NCBI RefSeq assembly: GCF_001693755.1
Contig: NZ_LYST01000006.1
Coordinates: 1 to 40,018 of the forward strand
Length of the DNA: 40,018 nucleotides
Direction: 5' to 3'
Origin: Gilliamella sp. wkB171
GTDB taxonomy: Bacteria; Pseudomonadota; Gammaproteobacteria; Enterobacterales; Orbaceae
Shown here: positions 10,844-40,000 of the stretch, one piece after another
Numbering within the stretch: the first letter of the stretch is position 1
How the letters are laid out: each line of letters starts with the position of its first letter
The notes under the pieces: generated by a model
Told to the model about the DNA's origin: nothing
Seen by the model: only the letters and a program-made list of their open reading frames with translations
The model's database searches: none
Position numbers and translations under genes: made by a program

Positions 10844-12568
<1,725 letters not shown>

Positions 12569-12624
12569 ACTAATAGTAACTTCCTTTTTTTTCCATATTT
12601 TTATTTCCATCTAACGTGCTCAAA

Positions 12625-17712: not shown

Positions 17713-18372
17713 TTAATTATCAATAATACTTGCCACTTTACCGTGTTCAAGTACAACTGTAGTTTGTGCATGCCGAGATACCTCAGGTGAGTGAGTCACC
17801 ACTATAATAGTGCTCCCTTCTTCATGCAGTTGATGTAATAAATTCATAACCATTGCTTCATTGTTTTCATCTAAATTACCGGTTGGTTCATCGGCTAAAA
17901 TTAGTTTAGGATAGTTGATCAATGCTCGAGCAATACAAACACGTTGCTGTTCACCGCCTGATAATTGTCTTGGTAAATGCTTTGCTCTGGCCGCTAAACC
18001 AACGCGTTCTAGAGCCTGTAACGCTTCTTTTTCATCAACCATACTGTGATAATACTGCGCTACCATTACGTTTTCTAAAGCTGTTAAGTATGAGACAAGA
18101 TGAAATTGTTGGAAAATCAATCCAATTTTATCTCGACGGATTTCGGTTAACTGGGGTAGAGAAAGCTGGGTGATATCTTGCCCGTCAAAAATTACCGAGC
18201 CTAATGATGGTTTATCCATACAACCGATAATATTCATCAATGTCGTTTTACCACTACCCGAAGGTCCCATGATAGATAACCATTTACCTTCCTCAACAGC
18301 TAAATTCACGTCTGAAAGTGCATGTAGTGAGCCATATATTTTTGATACATTCTTTACTTCGAGTATATTCAT
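17713..18372 (-). CDS. ABC transporter ATP-binding protein (LolD/MacB type)
   Basis: A 219-residue ATPase with Walker A GPSGSGKTT, Q-loop IFQQFHLVSYLTALEN, signature LSGGEQQRVCIARAL, Walker B LILADEPTGNLDEN and H-loop VVTHS. It is the partner of the two FtsX-like permeases encoded just upstream, which together correspond to the ABC part of the Campylobacter P19 cluster (Cj1661-Cj1663 type) and the E. coli fetABCDEF region. It begins 9 bp after the second permease gene. Its energy is probably used on the periplasmic side of the membrane to help move or reduce iron, but this is inference from context. Confidence 0.92.
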   Translation of the reverse strand: MNILEVKNVSKIYGSLHALSDVNLAVEEGKWLSIMGPSGSGKTTLMNIIGCMDKPSLGSVIFDGQDITQLSLPQLTEIRRDKIGLIFQQFHLVSYLTALENVMVAQYYHSMVDEKEALQALERVGLAARAKHLPRQLSGGEQQRVCIARALINYPKLILADEPTGNLDENNEAMVMNLLHQLHEEGSTIIVVTHSPEVSRHAQTTVVLEHGKVASIIDN

Positions 18373-18381
18373 ACTTAGATC

Positions 18382-19524
18382 CTATTCACCTCGCAATACG
18401 AGTGCGGGTTCAACTTCAAGAGCACGTTTTACAGGAATTAAACATGCTATTACCGTGACAAGAGCAGAAATAATAATAGTTGTTGGAATAAGGTAAAACT
18501 CAATAATTATTGATCGCCCAAAGACATTAGTACTAATAACTTGTGCAAAAACAAGCCCACAAACTACACCAATCATGCCACCAATGATACCTAATACCAA
18601 CCCTTCAGCTAAAAACTCTTTAGCTATGCTTTGATTATTTGCCCCAATTGCTTTTTTGAGTCCAATTTCTTTACGGCGTTCCATCACAACCGTCATCATC
18701 GTTGTAGCAACGCAAATCATAGTAAGCACTAACACCACAAAAGTGACTAAATAAAGTAATGATGAGAGTTTACCTAGAACTGAAGACTCTGATTGTGTTA
18801 CCCATTTTATTAAATGGGGATCGATAGTATTAATGTGGTTTTTGATTGTTTCAACATAGTGTTTTAATTCTGCTTCAGTAGCAGTTATACTCACTTCAAC
18901 CACTTCAGCCTGATCGGATTGTTCAAGTAGAACTTCTAAATCATGTAAATCAATAAATATAAATCCATCTTCGGCTCGCCCTGTTTTAATAATACCTGTA
19001 ATTTTAAGATCTTCATCAAAGCGCGAATCTTGTTTAGATTTACCCGAAATCGGCATCGTACTGCCAATTTTCAGTTTGGTAAAATTAGCAATATCGGTAC
19101 CAATCATGATTTCATTCGGATTTTTAGGTATGCTTCCTTCGATTTGCCAATAAGGGCTAGTTTTGGTCACTTGTTCGAAGTTAGTACCCACAATGGTATA
19201 AGGATGCTGATTGCTACGAATAGCATCATAACGGAAAGGAGTGACGCCTAAAAGCTTGTCTTGAGGAAGTAAATTTACTGCTTGTTTCACATCAGCAAGT
19301 GGCATAGTCGGTTGATTATTAGCGGGCATAAATAATAAATTTGCGCCATAAGAACGAAACTCTTGCCCCATTTGACGCGGAATATCATAGCATAATGTTA
19401 TCATTCCAAGTAAAACGGTAGCACCGATAGCAACCCCTAGCAATGCAATCATAATTCGCGATCGGCGACGAATGAGTGAGCTAAAAATGGTTTTGATAAT
19501 AAAGCGTGTATTTTTATTCATCAT
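18382..19524 (-). CDS. FtsX-like ABC permease of the P19-type iron system
   Basis: A 380-residue FtsX/MacB-type permease: N-terminal helix (RIMIALLGVAIGATVLLG), a periplasmic domain, then three C-terminal helices with the coupling motif MERRKEIGLKKAIGANNQ. The start at 19524 (ATGATG, AAAGG upstream) is preferred over the ATG at 19563, which overlaps the previous gene and adds non-conserved residues. It resembles its upstream neighbour closely (both have the EL/EF-x-x-YGANL segment), so the two arose by duplication and probably form a heterodimer. Confidence 0.9.
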   Translation of the reverse strand: MMNKNTRFIIKTIFSSLIRRRSRIMIALLGVAIGATVLLGMITLCYDIPRQMGQEFRSYGANLLFMPANNQPTMPLADVKQAVNLLPQDKLLGVTPFRYDAIRSNQHPYTIVGTNFEQVTKTSPYWQIEGSIPKNPNEIMIGTDIANFTKLKIGSTMPISGKSKQDSRFDEDLKITGIIKTGRAEDGFIFIDLHDLEVLLEQSDQAEVVEVSITATEAELKHYVETIKNHINTIDPHLIKWVTQSESSVLGKLSSLLYLVTFVVLVLTMICVATTMMTVVMERRKEIGLKKAIGANNQSIAKEFLAEGLVLGIIGGMIGVVCGLVFAQVISTNVFGRSIIIEFYLIPTTIIISALVTVIACLIPVKRALEVEPALVLRGE

Positions 19525-19543
19525 AATCGAGTTACCTTTGCTT

Positions 19544-20833
19544 TTATCGACCATGTAATACATCTGTTGGACGTAAAAACATCATTATCCGTAAAGCGGG
19601 TAAACTACCGACAAAGGTAATTAAACCAACCATAATTAATACTAAAGGAATAATAATCACTTTCGGCTCGACAAATGAACCAAATACCGTATGACCAATA
19701 ATTTGAGCAAATCCCAAGCCAATAAAGTAACCAAAAATTCCACCTAACAAGGCAATAATCAATATTTCAGTTAATATCAGCATAGCGACCGCTGTATTTG
19801 TTGCTCCTAATGCTTTAAGTAAACCAATTTCAGTGCTTCGCTCAATAACATTGGCTGTGACCAAATTTGAAATCGCCAACGCCGAGCAAATTAACGATAA
19901 AATGGTTAATAGCAACATGAGTAATTGTGTTTTTTGCAGTATAGAACCTTCAGATTCAGCGACTTGCATAATCGCTTTAACCCGAACATCAGGCATCAAT
20001 TCTTCAAGTTGATAAGCAATTGAACTAATGTAAGCGGTACAATACCAAGTATCCCATTCAGTTCTTGATAAACTATTAGGATCTTGTGCTGCTTTACGTG
20101 CTAATTCGTTTTCAGGTGTGGTTAATGCACTCACTTCAACTCGTTCAACGAGTCCTTCTTTATTTGCTAACTTTTGGACCACCGGCAGGGAGACATATAG
20201 CTGTGAATCTTCTACACCACCACTGTGAAAAATATTATTAACCGTTAACGTTAATGAATTATTTGTTTGTGGAGACGTAATATTGATGGTGTCACCTAAC
20301 TTTAAATTCCACTGTTTAGCAACAGTTTCGCCCACCATGACACCTTGTAAATTATCATCTTTCATGGTGTTACCTTCAATTGTCCACCATGATTTCATGG
20401 CTAACATGCCGGTATCAACTTCATCTCCAGTTGGAATAGTCAGGTGTTTGTTAAACCAAGTACCCACAATGGTAATAGGTTTGCCATTCAAATTAGCTTG
20501 AGCTGTTAGATAGGGGGCAAAATCGACAATGTTATAAGCCCAGAAGATCATCTTAATTTTGACTAAATCATCTTGCTTAATGTACTGCATAGCTTGTTGT
20601 TTGCCATTATTATCGTCAAGTTGGTACATTTCACTAACAAGCGCTGTTCCGCGAGGGACAATATTTAAATTAGCACCATAAGCCTTTAACTCTTGATTCA
20701 CTTTGTCACCAACATCAAACATAACATTTAACATTGCTGTTGCAAGTGAAACACCGAGTGCTACAGTTAAAGCGATCAAAAATAATTTCTTTTTTTGACG
20801 CACTAATACACTAATTAACATTCTGCGAAACAT
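19544..20833 (-). CDS. FtsX-like ABC permease of the P19-type iron system
   Basis: A 429-residue permease of the MacB/FtsX family. N-terminal helix LFLIALTVALGVSLATAML, then a large periplasmic domain beginning KAYGANLNIVPRG, then three C-terminal helices with the coupling segment VIERSTEIGLLKALGATN. It ends with PTDVLHGR, similar to its neighbour's EPALVLRGE. It lies 21 bp after the DUF2318 gene. Heterodimer with the next permease is likely, with one shared ATPase. In Campylobacter and uropathogenic E. coli the equivalent genes assist P19/FTR1 iron uptake, probably by acting on the periplasmic protein, though their exact function is unsettled. Confidence 0.9.
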   Translation of the reverse strand: MFRRMLISVLVRQKKKLFLIALTVALGVSLATAMLNVMFDVGDKVNQELKAYGANLNIVPRGTALVSEMYQLDDNNGKQQAMQYIKQDDLVKIKMIFWAYNIVDFAPYLTAQANLNGKPITIVGTWFNKHLTIPTGDEVDTGMLAMKSWWTIEGNTMKDDNLQGVMVGETVAKQWNLKLGDTINITSPQTNNSLTLTVNNIFHSGGVEDSQLYVSLPVVQKLANKEGLVERVEVSALTTPENELARKAAQDPNSLSRTEWDTWYCTAYISSIAYQLEELMPDVRVKAIMQVAESEGSILQKTQLLMLLLTILSLICSALAISNLVTANVIERSTEIGLLKALGATNTAVAMLILTEILIIALLGGIFGYFIGLGFAQIIGHTVFGSFVEPKVIIIPLVLIMVGLITFVGSLPALRIMMFLRPTDVLHGR

Positions 20834-20854
20834 AAACTTTTCCTTTGTTAACCT

Positions 20855-22105
20855 TTATTTAAAGCGTGCTTTTTCTGCTTCTAGGTTTGCGGGACGAATA
20901 ACCATATTCCCATCAATAATTTCATATTTAAGTGGAACTGGGTTACAACCACCAGAAAAGCCAATCGTTGCAATATTCATCACCACATCACATAAAATAC
21001 AAACAACTTGATTACCGCGTTGATAGTAACCACTTGCACCGCAAATATCACAGGCATCAAAACCAACGCCATAGGCGTTTTCGCTTTTTTTAATCACAAT
21101 AAAACGAACTAATGTACCATCGGTAGCCTTGTAACCATATCGATGTAAATTACCATCATTGACATTATCTAATGGAATAACAATTAAACCATCAGCATTA
21201 GGGGAAACCGGTTCAGCTGGCGTAAGTTCAACACCTTTTTCAAAAATGTAACGTGCTCTTGTTACCGTATAAGCAGTTATTGCAGCACCTGCGATGAGTA
21301 ATAATGACGTGCGTCTATCACTACGTAACTGTGCCTTGAGTTTACGTATTTGCGCTGGATTACTGCCAACTAATGATGTTGTTTTCGATTGGATATATAA
21401 CGCTATGGCCAATAACAACACTATTGCCATAAAAATAAAGATAAAGAAATTAACGTGACCTAATACAAAAATCACTAATTCCATCATCCATTTTTGTGGT
21501 TTAATAAATCGTCTTACAATTAAAATTTGAATAAGATTGATACTGTTTTGAATCGTAAATATAAGCAAAGCGATTAAAATAGTTGCTTGGACAAATTTAT
21601 TAGATAAACGCCTACATAGACGGAAAGTAAATACAGCAATTAATCCAGCAACGAGTAAAGCAAAGCAATAACCAACCCATTTGAATAGATAATCATTATT
21701 AAAGATTGACTCCATCCCAACTGAAAATTCAAAGGGATAAAGCATTAAATTTGGTAAAAATTGTGCAGCAATTAATCCAATAGCAAGCACAGATAGTAAG
21801 GTAAATAGAATTTTGCCAAGCTGGCAATTGATTGGTGTTTTTAATATTGCGCAGATAAACAATGGGATGGCAATTATCATCCACAAGGTGATGATGCCAA
21901 GATCATAAAATTCACGAACAGCAAAACCTGTATTTCGCTTCAAAATAGCATAAACTAATGCTGCAAATAATCCTATTATAAAACCGAAGGTAAAGATTTT
22001 TTTATTATAATTAGGTATTGCTCTAACTATCATTGCACTTAGTAGTGCTAATACAACAATGGGAACAAAAGTATTATCGGTAATTTTTATAAGGTATTGA
22101 AGCAT
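20855..22105 (-). CDS. DUF2318 polytopic membrane protein with CXXC motifs
   Basis: A 416-residue protein with about eight membrane helices in residues 1-255 and a C-terminal domain of about 150 residues. After a further hydrophobic segment (SLLLIAGAAITAYTV) the domain carries CDIC and CILC, two CXXC pairs about 16 residues apart, and a third cysteine in FSGGCNPVPLKYEI. These match DUF2318 (Cj1660-like). The four cysteines could hold an iron-sulphur cluster, or the pairs could carry electrons by thiol chemistry, which would make this a membrane electron-transfer partner for iron reduction during uptake. The gene is separated from P19 by a hairpin, unlike the tightly packed genes that follow. 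Confidence 0.87.
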   Translation of the reverse strand: MLQYLIKITDNTFVPIVVLALLSAMIVRAIPNYNKKIFTFGFIIGLFAALVYAILKRNTGFAVREFYDLGIITLWMIIAIPLFICAILKTPINCQLGKILFTLLSVLAIGLIAAQFLPNLMLYPFEFSVGMESIFNNDYLFKWVGYCFALLVAGLIAVFTFRLCRRLSNKFVQATILIALLIFTIQNSINLIQILIVRRFIKPQKWMMELVIFVLGHVNFFIFIFMAIVLLLAIALYIQSKTTSLVGSNPAQIRKLKAQLRSDRRTSLLLIAGAAITAYTVTRARYIFEKGVELTPAEPVSPNADGLIVIPLDNVNDGNLHRYGYKATDGTLVRFIVIKKSENAYGVGFDACDICGASGYYQRGNQVVCILCDVVMNIATIGFSGGCNPVPLKYEIIDGNMVIRPANLEAEKARFK

Positions 22106-22130
22106 ATTAATTGCCTAATGGTTACAACCT

Positions 22131-22159
22131 ATTATGGCGAGTGAAAACCTCGCCATAAT
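22131..22159. other. Intercistronic hairpin between P19 and DUF2318 genes
   Basis: ATTATGGCGAG pairs perfectly with CTCGCCATAAT across a 7-base loop (11-bp stem). No T-run follows on the minus strand, so it is more likely a partial terminator or an mRNA 3'-end protector than a full stop. It would leave more stable nitroreductase/FTR1/P19 message than message for the downstream permeases. Confidence 0.65.
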
Positions 22160-22207
22160 AAATACTACAAAATATTAAGTATAACTGATACTATTTTTTA
22201 AATATCA

Positions 22208-22771
22208 TTACCATGCTCGAGGAATATAATCAAAATCCCAAGAAACTTCAATTGGTTTAGTCCAAAAACGTCCTTCGACTCCGGTTTCTTTATCTACATG
22301 CAATAAATAACCTTGTTTTTCTGGATTTTCGATAGTAAATGTCACTTTATATTTACCTGCACCATCAAGTTTAATATTGTTACCATAATGTGGGCCATCC
22401 GATGCGTTCATTGGCATAAAGTTACCTTCTATGGCTTTATCGCTACCTTGTTTTTGGATCTTATATTTAACCGTTAAGTAAGGAACAAAATCGCCAACAC
22501 CATAACCAAGTTTATTGCCTTCTGCTGCTGAAATATCTGCTTCAATGTGCATATCAGATTTTGATGCAGGTAAACCACCCATGCCTGCTGGCTCCATATC
22601 TACAGGTTGAAAATAAACCGCGCCAATATGTAATGGTCCAACTGTCACTTCATCACCGATTGGAAACTCTTCAAAACCTTTTTGTTCGCCTGGAGCAGGT
22701 GCTGCTGCATAAGCAACAGATGATAACGCAAGTATTGATGAAATACCCGCAACTAATACTAATTTTTTCAT
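22208..22771 (-). CDS. Periplasmic iron-binding protein, P19/FetP family
   Basis: A 187-residue periplasmic protein with a Sec signal peptide (MKKLVLVAGISSILALSSVAYAA). It belongs to the P19/Tpd/FetP family, which binds Cu2+ and Fe at a Met/His site and delivers iron to the FTR1 permease. Visible family features are the early EEFPIGDE segment, GPLHIGAVYFQPVDMEPAGMG, the metal-site region SDMHIEADI (Met and His), GYGVGDFVPYLTV, NFMPMNASDGPHYGNNI with Met and His, and the C-terminal FWTKPIEVSWDFDY. It follows the FTR1 gene by 128 bp and must work with it. Confidence 0.95.
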   Translation of the reverse strand: MKKLVLVAGISSILALSSVAYAAAPAPGEQKGFEEFPIGDEVTVGPLHIGAVYFQPVDMEPAGMGGLPASKSDMHIEADISAAEGNKLGYGVGDFVPYLTVKYKIQKQGSDKAIEGNFMPMNASDGPHYGNNIKLDGAGKYKVTFTIENPEKQGYLLHVDKETGVEGRFWTKPIEVSWDFDYIPRAW

Positions 22772-22899
22772 TGAAAACTCCTTTACTTTTATTTAATTAC
22801 TCATCATTAAAGCAATCACTACTTTTTTTGCTATTTAAATTGACTTCGAAATATCATTAATCAACATCTAACCAACTTTTAAACAACAAACTAAATTGA

Positions 22900-24096
22900 T
22901 CAAACGTTTTGTTTATTATGTTTAGCTTTCAAATAAACCACCGATATGATAACAACTAATATCATAAATATTTGTGGTATTAACGTTTCAACGGTTGGAT
23001 AAATCCCTAAAATATCGATTGAATGCACAAAATCAACCGGCGTTACAGGAATTATATCGGCTTCTTGTAACTCTTTAACACCTCCGCCAGCAAAAGCTAT
23101 AGCCATAATATACATTAGTGTACTTGTGCCAATAAAAAATGGTCTAATTGGTAATTTCATAGTACCAAAACGAATCAATATAAAGATAATAGCAAGCACA
23201 AAACAACCTATGGCTAGACCATACCACACCATATCCATATGCTCTTTAGCTTCAGCCAACATTGCTTGGTAAAATAAAATAGTTTCAGCACCCTCACGGA
23301 AAACAGCTAAAAAGGCAGCAAATCCCAATGCAAAACTACTACCCGATGAAACCGCCGTCTGCACTTTACCTTCAACATAGTTTTTCCATGCTTTTGCTTC
23401 TGCTTTTGAAAACATCCAATTACTAACAAAAAATAGCACGACGGTGGCAAGTAACATTGCAACACCTTCTATCATTTCTTGATTAGCGCCACTAATATCA
23501 AAAATAGAGTGAAGCGCAATTGCCGCTAAAATACTGGCAAATACCGCAAATAACGAGCTCATGTAAACAACTTTAACCATAGGTAAGTTGCCCGAACGCA
23601 CTAAATAGGCCGATATAGCGGCAATAACTAAAATAGCCTCTAATCCTTCACGGAAAATAATAATAAATGAAGCTAATAAAATACTCCAACCGCTCTCTTT
23701 TTTGCCATCGAGCTCATTGGCATCTTCATGTAGCATTTTTAATAAAACGTCGATTTCTGCTCGTACTGTTTTATTTGGTGCGCCATCAGTCATTAAACGT
23801 TTGATTTTAGCAAATTGGTATTCGGTATCGGTACCGCGTTTACCAGAAATATATGACATTACAGCCCTTTCGACACCATGCTTTTCATAGAAACCGAAGT
23901 AGGCGTTATTTACGCGCTCTTTTGCTCTATCACTGTCTTTCATAAAATAGATATCGTAGGAATCATTGAGTATGCTATCCATTTCATCAATGATAGCATT
24001 CCAGCTTTGATATTTTTTTTCAGCAGCGTAAGAAGAGGGAGCAAAAACAATCACACTTGTAATTATCAACAATACTAATGCAAGAAACCGTTTCAC
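22900..24096 (-). CDS. FTR1-family iron permease (FetM/Cj1658-like)
   Basis: A 398-residue inner-membrane iron permease with a cleavable signal peptide (MKRFLALVLLIITSVIVF...SYAA) and a periplasmic N-terminal helical domain (about 25-140). Seven membrane helices follow. Both REXXE iron-passage motifs are present: REGLE (residue about 150) and REGAE (about 267). The order of signal peptide, periplasmic domain and FTR1 core matches the FetM/Cj1658 branch that pairs with P19, rather than EfeU, which pairs with EfeO. It imports iron across the inner membrane. It begins 12 bp after the nitroreductase-like gene. Confidence 0.95.
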   Translation of the reverse strand: MKRFLALVLLIITSVIVFAPSSYAAEKKYQSWNAIIDEMDSILNDSYDIYFMKDSDRAKERVNNAYFGFYEKHGVERAVMSYISGKRGTDTEYQFAKIKRLMTDGAPNKTVRAEIDVLLKMLHEDANELDGKKESGWSILLASFIIIFREGLEAILVIAAISAYLVRSGNLPMVKVVYMSSLFAVFASILAAIALHSIFDISGANQEMIEGVAMLLATVVLFFVSNWMFSKAEAKAWKNYVEGKVQTAVSSGSSFALGFAAFLAVFREGAETILFYQAMLAEAKEHMDMVWYGLAIGCFVLAIIFILIRFGTMKLPIRPFFIGTSTLMYIMAIAFAGGGVKELQEADIIPVTPVDFVHSIDILGIYPTVETLIPQIFMILVVIISVVYLKAKHNKQNV

Positions 24097-25101: not shown

Positions 25102-26646
25102 TTACCAATCCATCCAATCTGGGGTAAAACAAAAAGTAGAATAAATAATTGTGTGACCTAACTGCGCCGATATATTTCCATCTCTTGGACGAACAACAAA
25201 ATAGTCCCAATCATCAATAGTTTTTTGTTGAAGCCTTCTACCTGTCCAATAATAATTATCTAAATTAACATTTAAACCATAATTGGTTAAATTTCCCCAT
25301 TCACTAAAAACACCACCATTAATATGGCGCCAATAACGCCCACCATCTGTTGTTGTTTGAATATTCGGATTATTTAACCCTGATATATATCTTGTTACAC
25401 CTTCAAACATAAAAGAACCAGATGCAGTCGTAAAGTCAACCGGATCAGGTAAACGGTATTCTTGAGCCGTTATTGTTTCTTGGCGACCTGGTTGACCATC
25501 AAGCGCAAAACACCAGTTGGCTTGTCCAGCACTAGTTTCTAGTTTATCCTTATCGCGAACAACAAACCATTTTTGTAATTGAAATCCATATTCAACCACC
25601 TTCACACCATTCAAATTACCTTGTATTTTAAAATTAGCAGGTAACACCGAGGGTTTACGTGCAGTTGCACCATATTCACTAGAGGTCGGTGCTGGCCCAT
25701 TTAATGTCACCCTTACACTGTCTTTTGTAATATTACTTACAGTTGCAGTAATATCACCCACTTTTACTGTTGGCCAATTTAAATTTTCCATCCCATTGGT
25801 TATCAATAAATCGAAATACACGCCATTTCCAGCTAAAGTAGGGAAATTTTGATTATAATTTCTAGATAAACCCGATTGTGTTATAAATCCTTTTGATGTA
25901 TCCCACATATTGATTGGACCAGCAAAAATACCCGTGCTATTTTCCATACTACCCGGCCTAGCATAGCAAGCATATGGCTGAGTATCATGAGGATAGATAT
26001 AATATACAGCAGAGTTTTTTACATACGTTTTTTGATTTGGAATTCCAAAAGCCGTTTTTAATTGGACACCATCATTCGAATCAATATTTATAGTCAGTTT
26101 ATAAGGAGCAAAACATTTCGAAGGTAATTCATTTAAATCAGAGGCTTGCAGTTGTAAACCATTTTTATCTTGCCAATTGGCATTTATCGCGCCTGATATT
26201 GTAAAATCGCCATCACCATCAATATCTTGTGCTAAATTGGTGCCTAAAGTATAGTTTGTGGTATCGGGTGTGACAATGGTTTGGACACTTTTAAAAGTAT
26301 CGCCTGGTTTATTAAAATGAATGGCTTGGACTTTATCCCAATTACCATTTTCGTTTAATTTCATCATATTTCCAGCTGGATCACTTAAATAAACATCATT
26401 GCCAATCTTGATTGTTAATAAATTATCATTAATACCGTTAAATAAAATAAATGGAGAAGATCCTCTGATAGCAGAAGAAGTTTTAGCGGTTAATGCATCG
26501 ACAATTGGCACATTAAACATGCATAAACAGAAACAAATAACAAGCGAAGCTATTTTAAAGGTAGACCAATTAATTGCGAATAATAGAGTGTTGAAAGAAG
26601 AATGAAAATTTATTGTTTTAACAATTTGATTACGACAAGTTACCAA
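25102..26646 (-). CDS. Phase-variable secreted adhesin-domain protein (OFF phase)
   Basis: The second paralogue. The open frame shown starts at a TTG without a ribosome site and has 514 codons. The likely true start is the ATG at 26755 (GGGG 5 nt upstream), which reads M-I-K-Y and then through heptanucleotide repeats. ATG to TTG is 109 nt, one more than a multiple of three, so translation from the ATG hits a TAA at 26668-26666 and the gene is OFF. With 8 repeats instead of 9 it would be a 548-codon frame. The coded protein has a long basic leader, a hydrophobic core ending MFNVPIVDA, then ALTAKTSSAIRGSSPFILF, DIDGDGDF, TAFGIPNQ/YACYARPG, VRVTLNGPAPTSSE, QLQKWFVVRD and a lectin-like C-terminus (FSEWG, YYWTGRR). 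This matches the InvE-type adhesin domain (formerly DUF823). No anchor is visible. Confidence 0.82.
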   Translation of the reverse strand: MVTCRNQIVKTINFHSSFNTLLFAINWSTFKIASLVICFCLCMFNVPIVDALTAKTSSAIRGSSPFILFNGINDNLLTIKIGNDVYLSDPAGNMMKLNENGNWDKVQAIHFNKPGDTFKSVQTIVTPDTTNYTLGTNLAQDIDGDGDFTISGAINANWQDKNGLQLQASDLNELPSKCFAPYKLTINIDSNDGVQLKTAFGIPNQKTYVKNSAVYYIYPHDTQPYACYARPGSMENSTGIFAGPINMWDTSKGFITQSGLSRNYNQNFPTLAGNGVYFDLLITNGMENLNWPTVKVGDITATVSNITKDSVRVTLNGPAPTSSEYGATARKPSVLPANFKIQGNLNGVKVVEYGFQLQKWFVVRDKDKLETSAGQANWCFALDGQPGRQETITAQEYRLPDPVDFTTASGSFMFEGVTRYISGLNNPNIQTTTDGGRYWRHINGGVFSEWGNLTNYGLNVNLDNYYWTGRRLQQKTIDDWDYFVVRPRDGNISAQLGHTIIYSTFCFTPDWMDW

Positions 26647-26670
26647 AAATAGTAAATCATCAAAATTAAC

Positions 26671-26736
26671 GATGCCCGATGCCCGATGCCCGATGCCCGA
26701 TGCCCGATGCCCGATGCCCGATGCCCGATGCCCGAT
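26671..26736. repeat. Heptanucleotide tract (GATGCCC)9 plus GAT
   Basis: Nine exact GATGCCC copies (26671-26733) followed by GAT. On the minus strand they encode repeating IGHRASG between an ATG with a good ribosome site (26755) and the adhesin open frame. The unit of 7 changes the frame by one base per copy, so about one in three repeat numbers gives full translation: 8 or 11 copies ON, 9 copies OFF. Confidence 0.93.
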
Positions 26737-26755
26737 TTAGGATATATTTTATCAT

Positions 26756-34249: not shown

Positions 34250-35839
34250 TCAAGGAGACACACAAACAACACGATGTGTTAATGCTGATGGCATATTATA
34301 GCCGATATAACCTTGTGAATACATTCCATTATTAATATCATAAATCAAACTATACATATTGGGTACAGCAAGTGATGTCCAGTATATACCTGAACCATCC
34401 CAATTTTTTGCAGCAGGATAATCAGTAGAAGTGTTACTCAGATACCCCCATTCATTCATTAAACCACCAACCCACTTATCACCATTTTTATAACTGATTT
34501 GACGACGATAAGAATTACCCTGACCTGGAATTCCATTCTCCCAGCCATATCCATTTCCATTAGTAAAATCTTCAACTCCAGGTATTCGATAGGTAGCGCC
34601 CAGATTATTACAAAATGCTTTGGCATTTTCGTAACCATCTGCTTGTTCAATCTTAGTTATGTACCAACGCTCGATTTTAAACTTATAAAGCAACTGACTA
34701 TGATTACTATCAGAATAAAGTTTAAACTCTGAGGGAGTGAAAGATCTATTAGTGGAATCTAGGGTTGGTCCATTTAATAGAATTTTTAATGCCAACTGTG
34801 GCTGCCCATTCCAATTCTGTGTCTTTTCTACAGTTAATGACAAATTAACGGTTTTATTACCATTTTCAGGGAAAACGGTAGCACCATTGGCCGTAATGAC
34901 TTGATTTGGCGTAATACCTGCTAATAATAAATAAAAATGAAGACCATTTGAACCGGTTGTAGGAAAGTTATTGGCAACATTATCAATATTATCGACTCTA
35001 AATCCTTTCTTACTCACCCAATTTGGCCCATATGATTGATCCATAGAAAAGTTGGGCTGAGCATAACACACATAAGGCATATCTATCTTTGGGGTAATAT
35101 AGTAAACACTTGTTGCAGCATTAAAACGCGTAGTATTCGGTATGCCATACTGGGTTGATAATATACCATCAGTGGTTTGAATATTGAGTTGATAAGGTGC
35201 ATCACAGGGATCTAATGCTGTAATTGTATTATTACTAATCATACTCGTAACATTTACCCCTTGCTTATTTATCCATGAAAGCGTTAACGTTCCCGTTGCT
35301 GTTACGTTGCCATCACCATCATCATCCCCCCAATAGTTATATAATTTGATTAAACTGTTTAAAGCAACACTCGGATAATTACTATTCCCCTCTTTTTTAA
35401 GTGGAACAAATGTTTTTATACTAACAAAATCTAACTCTCCGTTATTTAAAATAATTGGATTTGTCATAGTTGAATCGTTAACGATCGCATTTGGATATAA
35501 ATGCGCCATATCACCGGATGGCACATACTGACGACCATCTGGTAACGTTACACTTAACAAACCTTCTGTACTTGTTACTTTTGTTTTACCTTTATCAAAA
35601 GTTAAATAAGGTTTACTACCATTGATCTTGTTAATGGTCACAGCGGTTAATGCATTGGCGTTAACCGTAAATAACATAGATATTAAGCTAACAGCAATAT
35701 AAGAACTAAAATTGCGTTTTACTGATAGTATTTTTTTAAAATGAACAATCCATCTAAAAAAGATAAATAACACTAATTGGTGAGAAAAAGTTAAGATAAT
35801 ACTGATGAAAAATAAACAAACTAGTTTGATACTATTCAT
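34250..35839 (-). CDS. Secreted adhesin-domain protein, third copy
   Basis: A 529-residue paralogue, closest to the ON copy at 10844. The ATG at 35839 has AGG 6 nt upstream; a TTG two codons earlier is less likely. Unlike the first two copies there is no simple-sequence repeat: the leader is two hydrophobic segments (LVCLFFISIILTF and later SYIAVSLISMLFTV) with a basic HFKKILSVKRN between them, then likely cleavage after NANA near residue 63. The mature protein starts ALTAVTINKINGSKPYLTF and has NYWGDDDGDGN, STQYGIPN/YVCYAQPN, FPTTGSNGLHFYLLLAG, a lectin-like end with FCNNLGATYRIP, YRRQISYKNGDKWVGG, MNEWG and a final VVCVSP. It fits the InvE-type adhesin domain without a barrel. It should be constitutively in frame. 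Confidence 0.84.
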   Translation of the reverse strand: MNSIKLVCLFFISIILTFSHQLVLFIFFRWIVHFKKILSVKRNFSSYIAVSLISMLFTVNANALTAVTINKINGSKPYLTFDKGKTKVTSTEGLLSVTLPDGRQYVPSGDMAHLYPNAIVNDSTMTNPIILNNGELDFVSIKTFVPLKKEGNSNYPSVALNSLIKLYNYWGDDDGDGNVTATGTLTLSWINKQGVNVTSMISNNTITALDPCDAPYQLNIQTTDGILSTQYGIPNTTRFNAATSVYYITPKIDMPYVCYAQPNFSMDQSYGPNWVSKKGFRVDNIDNVANNFPTTGSNGLHFYLLLAGITPNQVITANGATVFPENGNKTVNLSLTVEKTQNWNGQPQLALKILLNGPTLDSTNRSFTPSEFKLYSDSNHSQLLYKFKIERWYITKIEQADGYENAKAFCNNLGATYRIPGVEDFTNGNGYGWENGIPGQGNSYRRQISYKNGDKWVGGLMNEWGYLSNTSTDYPAAKNWDGSGIYWTSLAVPNMYSLIYDINNGMYSQGYIGYNMPSALTHRVVCVSP

Positions 35840-36249
35840 TGACAACCTATTATTAAAAAGTTTTTATTTAGAAAAATATGCTGTTTTCCTCTATATTAAT
35901 TTTAGATATCCTTATCATAACCTGTTCAATATCGACCACAATTTAAATATCTTTAATTTTTTTCAAATTATTTTAAGAATCAAAATTTACATTACGTTTT
36001 AGCTATGATTATTTGAGCGTTAATATTGAAAATCATTATGTGTTAATCATCCAATATGATGAAAAAATGAATAAAATTTCAATAGATAGATGAGGGCAAA
36101 AAAAGTTAGAAACTATCTTTTAAATTAATGAAAAGACACGTTTGGTGAAAAATGCTTGGAAAGTATTTGCTTAACGAATATGGGATATAGTTGATATAAA
36201 TGCTAAAGGATTTCCACTGCAGTAAACAGCAGAAATCCTGCAAACATGA
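35840..36249. other. Intergenic region between adhesin copy 3 and ettA
   Basis: About 400 bp of AT-rich DNA holding the adhesin promoter (not pinpointed) and the ettA terminator at its right end. No gene is supported. Confidence 0.5.
36207..36239 (-). terminator. Probable terminator of ettA
   Basis: AGGATTTC and GAAATCCT form a perfect 8-bp stem with a 17-base loop, followed on the minus strand by TTTAGCATTT. It is 10 bp past the ettA stop codon. Confidence 0.6.
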
Positions 36250-38362: not shown

Positions 38363-40000
38363 TTATCTTGTAGGGAGTGTGCTAATTCCATTTTCGCCCC
38401 GGCATAAAATTTGTGCTGATTGAGCTTCACCAAGATCAAAGTCATCACCCCACCAAATGGTTCCATACGGCACCCAATTAAATACAGCAAATGGCTTGTT
38501 TGTACGATCCATTTCAGCTGTCCAAAGAAAGCTTCCAAATTGAAGAAATATGCCCCATTCACTCATAAAAGTACCTAAATCTCGAGCAGCGGGATATTTG
38601 TTGAAATCAACTATTGCGTTAGATGCCCCTTCTGGTTTGTTAACTAGTAAAGAGTTGGTCAATTCATCTCTTCGATACAGATATTTTTGTCGCCAAGCTT
38701 TACCTGCTTCTGACATATCATTAACCTGATCAGATGTTGTTTTGGGTATTGCTTGACCATCTATTATTCTTCTACATTCATCGTAGGCTAAATACCCATC
38801 AAACATATCTATAAATCCTTTTACGTGCGTAGGTAGTATTGCCCATTTTTGTGGTATAGGGAGCGTAATTTTACCAATGTTTTGCCAAGTTTTACCTTCA
38901 TCAGCACTATATTCCATATTAATCGTTAAGGGTGTTGTGGGCTTAGTGACACTGTCATAATGTACTTGGCAATTTGCACCTAAGTCTTTACTTGCGACCG
39001 GAGATTGCAATGTAACCCAGTTAGTACTATTGCTGCTATCTAGTTGGCAACGATACTGACTTTGATCGGCTCCCGAGCCGATTAACATGAAGGTAATACC
39101 TTTAAAACCGGTTATTGGTTTAAATTGTTCAGCTTTAAATCCACCACCTTCTTGAAAAACCTTGGACGATGGGCTTGTACCAGGATCCCATACCTCTGGG
39201 TTATAACCATTAGGATACTTAGTCATGTAAGAACTATTCTTATAAACATTCATATTTGGTTGAACAAAGCATAACTTAGGTCCCCCCTCAAGCATAAATT
39301 GGTAAGTAATAACGGGTTGGCTACCATAAATGTTTTTATTAGGTTGACCGTATTTAGTCGATACCGCAACGTTTTGAGCACCAATTTTTAAAAAGTAAGG
39401 TCCTCCACACACATTGAATTCACGACTTAAATCATTTATCACGTTATTATTATCATACCAGGTTGCTGTTAGTGTGCCCTCTATGGTTGTGTTTTCAGTA
39501 AGGGAAGCATCACCATCATCATCACCAACGTTGAATTGAGATAATGCATTTGCCTGACCATTAGCTGGAACCATCGTAATGATATCAGAAAATTTAGTTC
39601 CTTCTGGTACTTGCAAGGGTTTACCACCAAAAGAGATCGATTTACTTACATCAACGGGTTTTAATGCGTTATTATTTTCTGTTGTAGGCATTCTAAAACC
39701 AAGTAATTCATTCAATCCTTTGATTTTAGTCCCTACATTTCCGTCTTGATCTGATTTTAATTGTAAATAAGGTGCACTACCTACAATGGTTTTAGCTGTC
39801 ACATTTGATAATGCTTCGGTATAAGGCGAAAAAAAAATAAATAAAAAATGAATAACAATAATAGATAACGTTAAGTTAAGTTTTAGGTGTATAACCTTAT
39901 TGGAAGGATTAATCCGTTTGAAAGTTAGAAGCCATATTAATTGATTAAAAATATTAAATTTAAAATCAATAAAAAATAAGGAAATTAATTTTCGCTTCAT
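38363..40000 (-). CDS. Secreted adhesin-domain protein, fourth copy
   Basis: A 545-residue, more divergent paralogue. The ATG has AGG about 9 nt upstream. A long leader (about 63 residues) contains basic and hydrophobic stretches ending in SIIVIHFLFIFFSPYTEA, then LSNVTAKTIVGSAPYLQL. The mature protein has VGDDDGDASL, STKYGQPN/LCFVQPNMN, a GFKGITFMLIGSG Ig-like segment, and a lectin-like C-terminus with DLGTFMSEWG and FLWTAEMD. It differs from the others in ending GENGISTLPTR instead of a Cys-Val-x-Pro tail, though the last cysteine is kept (AQILCRGE). No simple-sequence repeat lies in its first 60 codons. No anchor or barrel. Near-complete within the window; its promoter is outside to the right. 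Confidence 0.8.
   Translation of the reverse strand: MKRKLISLFFIDFKFNIFNQLIWLLTFKRINPSNKVIHLKLNLTLSIIVIHFLFIFFSPYTEALSNVTAKTIVGSAPYLQLKSDQDGNVGTKIKGLNELLGFRMPTTENNNALKPVDVSKSISFGGKPLQVPEGTKFSDIITMVPANGQANALSQFNVGDDDGDASLTENTTIEGTLTATWYDNNNVINDLSREFNVCGGPYFLKIGAQNVAVSTKYGQPNKNIYGSQPVITYQFMLEGGPKLCFVQPNMNVYKNSSYMTKYPNGYNPEVWDPGTSPSSKVFQEGGGFKAEQFKPITGFKGITFMLIGSGADQSQYRCQLDSSNSTNWVTLQSPVASKDLGANCQVHYDSVTKPTTPLTINMEYSADEGKTWQNIGKITLPIPQKWAILPTHVKGFIDMFDGYLAYDECRRIIDGQAIPKTTSDQVNDMSEAGKAWRQKYLYRRDELTNSLLVNKPEGASNAIVDFNKYPAARDLGTFMSEWGIFLQFGSFLWTAEMDRTNKPFAVFNWVPYGTIWWGDDFDLGEAQSAQILCRGENGISTLPTR

Follow-up and report, generated by a model that had tools for sequence, protein, structure and literature searches.

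Most work on repeat-driven phase variation concerns pathogens and commensals of vertebrates, and immune escape is the usual reason given for it. Here, a heptanucleotide tract is described at the start of an adhesin-like gene of Gilliamella sp. wkB171, a bee gut symbiont of the family Orbaceae with a genome of 2.67 Mb in 59 contigs (label G000). The gene lies on the minus strand of contig 6, and the 40,018 nucleotides (nt) of this contig that were analyzed (NZ_LYST01000006.1, positions 1 to 40,018) are called the window. Very probably, the tract is a contingency locus that turns translation ON or OFF in one gene of a large family, whose products in Gilliamella and its relatives would be secreted, lectin-like adhesins, probably exposed at the surface.

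In the Neisseria opa genes, the repeat sits in the 5' coding sequence and the tracts have a pentanucleotide in common; the Opa protein is a beta-barrel. Like opa, the Gilliamella family comprises many dispersed paralogues of a putative surface adhesin with a coding repeat, few of them in frame, and it combines semivariable and hypervariable regions with a conserved scaffold. Unlike opa, it uses heptamers and a tetramer, reaches at least 38 copies per genome, has no barrel, and consists of invasin-tip-like proteins carried by an insect symbiont. One opa study gives a mean of 1.7 in-frame copies per isolate against 3.4 expected, which is below one third (PMC13183285). For the locus described here, the best-supported mechanism is translational phase variation in a family of many adhesin-like genes, with a design close to that of opa.

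Other systems share single elements with this family. In Haemophilus influenzae, heptanucleotide repeats are used for phase variation mainly before the hmw genes, and tetramers occur in the hgp genes (PMC2651432). The Gilliamella family resembles the (CCAA)n hgp genes as a tetranucleotide paralogue family and hmw in its heptanucleotide repeats; unlike those of hmw, its heptamers lie within the coding region of a large family. For Neisseria lactamica, a commensal, one study gives 36-82 repeat-mediated phase-variable loci (PMC5953494). Gilliamella would likewise be a commensal with many repeat-mediated phase-variable genes but, unlike the mixed gene sets of N. lactamica, one protein family holds all GGGCATC and CTGG tract places found in the genome. 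Finally, the C-terminal half of the proteins (about profile positions 230-448) matches the tip that follows the immunoglobulin (Ig)-like domains in intimin and invasin, which are inverse autotransporters (IAT). Unlike these, the Gilliamella proteins have neither the IAT beta domain nor a long Ig stalk, and their N-terminal domain was matched in Orbaceae only.

No report of phase variation in Gilliamella was found in the literature, where broader queries were judged from top-ranked titles. As far as we have seen, the new elements are the insect-symbiont carrier, the size of the set, the coding heptamers that differ between lineages, the frequent OFF state at three units, and the invasin-like tip as a free-standing protein.

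Anatomy of the proposed switch

The switched gene begins with an ATG at 26753-26755. The sequence directly 5' of it is ATTGGGGAAAGT, i.e., GGGG with a 5-nt spacer. In coding order, the ATG at 26755 is followed by six more codons, one base, nine units of GGGCATC (GATGCCC on the plus strand), and then the long adhesin-like frame in another register. By direct count the tract occupies 26671-26733, and Tandem Repeats Finder placed it at 26670-26736 with 9.6 copies and a 100% match. A perfect tandem array of non-triplet units therefore sits between the start codon and the coding frame. Within the window, the longest self-match at period 7 measures 60 bases, versus at most 12 in 50 mononucleotide shuffles; by this comparison, the tract is not a chance occurrence.

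Translation from the ATG gives a short OFF-state frame of 29 codons plus TAA (26666-26755). Its product consists of MIKYILN followed by RASGIGH repeats, and its first stop is the TAA at 26668-26666. The long frame (25102-26646) encodes 514 amino acids (aa) from a TTG and is open upstream into the tract, so that 522 codons are open downstream of the tract in a register other than that of the ATG. A TAA closes the long frame directly before the tract. The TTG at 26646 is the only in-frame start after this upstream stop, and a ribosome-site scan of it found none.

A preliminary description of the locus, made from the sequence, had placed the ribosome site and spacer of the ATG at 26755 as given here, and a direct sequence check confirmed them. 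It had also read the nine-unit tract as out of register, with the ATG frame ending at 26668-26666, which held base for base. Its frame arithmetic (109 nt from the ATG to the frame; 8 copies giving 548 codons and 11 giving 555) agrees with the checked coordinates, and it was right that the coding frame has no other start with a detected ribosome site and is closed by a TAA just before the repeats.

In the proposed mechanism, the ribosome would start at the ATG and read through the tandem array of non-triplet units. Gain or loss of whole units, most simply by slipped-strand mispairing during replication, would shift the downstream frame into or out of register. Out of register, as assembled, the 29-residue peptide would be made; in register, the product would be the full precursor, with an unusually long leader ahead of the signal peptide. 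Each tract-bearing paralogue would be its own counter, so that a population could show many combinations. We infer slippage as the cause, live switching, export, and surface exposure, and the exported protein would bind glycans or other ligands on the gut surface, other bacteria, or phage.

The family in the genome of wkB171

A search with a profile built from 30 members (A1) found 37 family members in the genome, none with internal stops; a single protein query had given 23 matches. A tract lies just after the start in 22 of the 37, each with its own: GGGCATC in 12, CCAG in five, AGACACC in three, and AGCAGGC and AAAACGC in one each. The start codon is visible in 20 of these 22 genes, four of which are in frame and 16 out, and the other two tracts are cut by contig ends. 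Among the 15 members without a tract, 11 are open from an ATG with some ribosome site, and one of the other four has a decayed leader with a stop. A scan of the whole genome located at least three GGGCATC units at 11 places and at least five CTGG units at five places, and all 16 are at the starts of family members. The leader ATGTTAAAATRTGGTCTTAATC ahead of the tract is common to eight of nine examined tract loci with a visible start; the window locus has a variant.

Four paralogues lie in the window, all on the minus strand. Besides the gene at 25102-26646, there is one at 10844-12610 with a (CCAG)23 tract (12440-12532; CTGG x23 on the plus strand), which is in frame. The two at 34250-35845 and 38363-40000, the latter near the contig end, have no tract and are open from an ATG with a weak ribosome site. 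The preliminary description had spoken of two paralogues with independent switches, one ON and one OFF. Both switches are real, the heptamer being out of register and CCAG x23 in register; "two", by contrast, understates a set of four in the window and 37 in the genome.

A divergent member with 13 AGCAGGC units is in frame elsewhere in the genome (C8:79666-81057; L047). Mutually exclusive expression, with one gene ON per genome, was considered as a rule and is ruled out, as wkB171 has four tract genes ON and G017 has three.

Distribution and state across the Orbaceae

Of 44 Orbaceae genomes, 41 carry the family, and single genomes reach at least 38 members. An exact match to (GGGCATC)4 occurs in eight of the 44; other species carry other heptamers at the same place, and 15 different tract units were found in the genes sampled across the Orbaceae. 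None of the 15 units contains a stop in any frame, and T is absent from the coding strand in 13, whereas 54% of random 7-mers from the window are stop-free and 8% are T-free. Pattern scans of IMG/VR found no locus with the leader and two loci with four GGGCATC units (L139 and L140).

Three relatives were censused in depth, the others yielding one to a few matches each. A gene was called ON under a lenient rule, which required an ATG and a ribosome-site match of three bases or more. The single-contig genome G006 gave 34 rows, of which 16 have a tract (15 OFF, one ON), and G017, also a single contig, gave 33 rows with 17 tract genes (14 OFF, three ON). For G011, 31 rows (30 distinct) of at least 38 genes were covered, and 24 of the 25 tract genes are OFF and one is ON. 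Overall, nine of 86 resolved tract genes are ON and 77 are OFF. By length, 58 of 59 three-unit tracts (all heptamers) are OFF and one is ON, three of five four-unit tracts are ON and two OFF, and five of 22 tracts with at least five units are ON, which is compatible with one third (P = 0.21).

Some census rows are duplicates: in G000, L029 is a cut copy of a gene also in L057, and L032-23 is a copy of L035; in G006, L105-2710 is a cut copy of L110-2710; and in G011, L088+19668 is a cut copy of L089+668. L029 was dropped from the state counts, the in-frame-start scan, and the unit-composition comparison. L032-23, L105-2710, and L088+19668 have no tract. The fragment row of G006 is L103+2472.

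Variation in unit number

Whole-unit length variation at the same locus was seen in two between-species orthologue pairs. The gene at C43:16313 has eight units and its orthologue in the sister genome G032 has seven, both out of register; that at C43:518038 has three units, as in G033, versus one in G032, with otherwise matching flanks. The window locus is kept in G032 with at least seven units, the contig ending inside the tract, and has 94.5% DNA identity over 3111 aligned bases. Among paralogues of G017 and G011 with closely matching leaders, genes with three units are OFF and genes with four are ON; the G011 alignment took in seven of its 24 OFF genes.

Later family analyses used genes whose profile match begins by position 20. 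Genes shorter than 440 aa or ending short of profile position 410 were excluded from the tree and from the selection analysis below. The tree, built by maximum likelihood, comprises 76 tract genes of four genomes; on it, nine changes are required to account for the nine ON genes and 23 to account for copy number. The ON states are therefore scattered tips. Shuffled ON/OFF labels gave a mean of 8.6 changes, a near-equality that fits a state inherited only briefly.

These data bear on the alternative that survives best, a silent archive, in which most out-of-register members would donate by gene conversion to a few in-frame ones and the tract would mainly silence. The nearly uniform OFF state of three-unit genes would suit it, as would groups with near-identical leaders and diverged C-termini, and each of the four censused genomes has tract-free members open from an ATG. 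We nevertheless consider it unlikely, as silent genes have complete starts and ribosome sites, three-unit OFF and four-unit ON genes are found in place with matching flanks, and ON genes are scattered on the tree, with nine changes for nine genes.

It is less likely still that a short-read assembly miscounted the units and that the window gene is in frame in the cell. With 59 contigs, sister tracts on C35 and C45 cut by contig ends, and a third on C22 only 27 bases from one, exact copy numbers in this genome do rest on assembly, and contigs of G032 end in tracts too. The window tract (63 nt), however, is well inside its contig. Tract genes are also mostly OFF in the single-contig genomes, 15 of 16 in G006 and 14 of 17 in G017, so that assembly does not account for the OFF class.

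Silent copies

If the OFF register were rescued by programmed frameshifting or reinitiation, the tract would tune expression rather than switch it. The OFF leader is conserved as a 26-aa peptide in most G011 tract genes, which could speak for such a role. Among the 77 OFF genes, however, an in-frame ATG follows the tract in two, and in no case does it have a ribosome site. An in-frame ATG, GTG, or TTG lies within 20 nt of the leader stop in three, and one has another start codon with a weak ribosome site. Rescue thus appears very improbable.

Selection on the silent copies was examined as the ratio of nonsynonymous to synonymous substitution rates (dN/dS), by the Nei-Gojobori method averaged over pairs and uncorrected for gene conversion. 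For the 24 OFF genes of G011, pairwise dN/dS averages 0.16 in the first mature block and 0.22-0.46 in the five that follow. The final three have 0.81, 0.52, and 1.15, and identity drops from 0.89 to 0.45 along the protein. The last block also has the lowest identity in three other sets, with dN/dS of 0.47 (G006 OFF genes), 0.65 (G017), and 0.87 (G000 genes with GGGCATC), the latter two sets also including ON or cut genes. The scaffold is conserved among silent copies, and their C-terminal end is diverse. On this averaged pairwise evidence, purifying selection on OFF genes is what is expected from occasional use, and the variable C-terminal end is what is expected of a ligand-binding or exposed tip.

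That the out-of-register members are decaying pseudogenes is disfavored and scarcely credible, since, despite a decayed leader at C55:186598 (MLKYGPNQASQ and then a stop, with no tract) and several fragments and internal-stop members in G028, the long frame is uninterrupted in 37 of 37 members here and the scaffold dN/dS of OFF genes is low (0.16-0.46 in blocks 1-6 of G011).

The protein and its relatives

Family members share a hydrophobic stretch before an A-L pair, an N-terminal domain, and a C-terminal half in which cysteines and an EWG motif are conserved. In the window gene, alignments place the hydrophobic stretch at 26494-26547, before the family-wide A-L, and it is likely the core of a signal peptide with its cleavage site. 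The N-terminal domain spans approximately 25846-26493, and profile searches at the level of the order matched it in Orbaceae genomes only. Profile comparison places a putative Ig-like and C-type-lectin-like module at approximately 25105-25845, lectin-like by comparison with invasin-type tips.

Searches with the window adhesin returned nothing significant from Pfam, NCBIfam, or PHROG. In the Pfam scan of A1, its only weak match was ProQ_C (E = 0.006), which looks like chance, and the NCBIfam scan of A1 gave just two single-member matches with E near 0.04. IAT_beta is absent from the eight Pfam families listed for the mature regions of the 30 A1 members, and a scan of three of the four window members did not find it.

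Among 295 genomes drawn from the order, whole-profile matches were confined to the Orbaceae. In five matching genomes outside this family, the match is limited to profile positions 224-448, in frames of 319 to 3144 aa. One of these relatives, L141, combines IAT_beta and Invasin_D4 with three stretches of Big_1, and the profile aligns to its C-terminal 178 residues. When three relatives were rescored with the family profile (search space 1000), the end of L141 matched with E = 8e-15 for the whole sequence and 3e-13 for the best stretch, L143 matched with 4e-18, and L142 was unmatched. By these partial matches and the architecture of L141, the C-terminal half is similar to an invasin-type adhesin tip, but the barrel and stalk of such adhesins are missing from the Gilliamella proteins. 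The term "adhesin" in the preliminary description is thus supported by remote homology to such tips and is not backed by function.

All four Gilliamella genomes tested carry a single, separate IAT_beta gene, which in wkB171 is C31:5985-6794 (L174). The passenger of this protein (about 450 aa) has no Pfam match, and a comparison did not support it as a relative of the adhesin family. The IAT gene is a possible carrier or partner of the family. Throughout the family, the signal-peptide core is predicted at a long and variable distance from the start codon (tens of residues), beyond that of a usual signal peptide, and the leaders are possibly extended signal peptides.

Strength and meaning of the proposed switch

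Several points weigh against a live switch of an adhesin. Three units are short for rapid slippage, and with 58 of 59 such tracts OFF, many members may therefore be near-permanently silent. Unit number alone does not fix the state: a single three-unit gene is ON, and among the five genes with four units, two are OFF. The proportion of nine in 86 ON departs from one third in a binomial test that ignores shared descent (P = 8e-7). This OFF excess is not claimed as proof of selection, because shared descent is uncorrected and tracts of at least five units alone fit one third. Near the mature start of one of the 77 OFF genes there is an in-frame TTG that has a weak ribosome site, and C-terminal dN/dS exceeds 1 in G011 alone. 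The genome set holds one genome per species, and the differences in unit number are between species and between paralogues. As for the protein, the gene has no outer-membrane barrel, Pfam Invasin_D4 was matched in nine of 30 A1 members (best E = 9e-5) with the window gene not among them, a sequence search of the PDB with the family profile found no solved structure, and adhesin function rests on remote homology.

Translational switching by the tract remains the preferred reading, and a cell may keep most family genes off and bring out one or another by chance. A wider proposal is offered tentatively, and we would not call it probable. The Orbaceae, as insect gut symbionts, would run a genus-wide, default-OFF set of dozens of free-standing invasin-tip lectins, each silenced by a heptamer counter that mostly stays fixed at three units; a gain of units would release them one at a time. 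The counter would have been re-invented in each lineage from stop-free, mostly T-free heptamers. The purpose would be other than antibody escape, because bees lack antibodies, and could be ligand choice on gut surfaces, strain recognition, or phage avoidance. If true, the immune-escape reason for phase variation could be tested in an antibody-free host, with gnotobiotic bees as the assay, and the family would be a candidate mechanism for strain-level niche differences in the bee gut. Gene calls of presence or absence in Gilliamella would miss the ON/OFF state.

Further observations

In the relative G028, two family matches lie in one open frame of 1556 aa (C1:1005495-1009682) and several members are fragmented; these are fused and decaying copies. 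At the low end of the window, a large serine recombinase is encoded on the plus strand (1167-2804; Resolvase, Zn-ribbon, and Recombinase domains; PHROG integrase family), which suggests a mobile element. An iron uptake cluster on the minus strand (17716-24096), with an FTR1-type iron permease, an Fe2+ transport protein, an FtrD-like protein, and an ABC ATPase, adjoins the switched gene.
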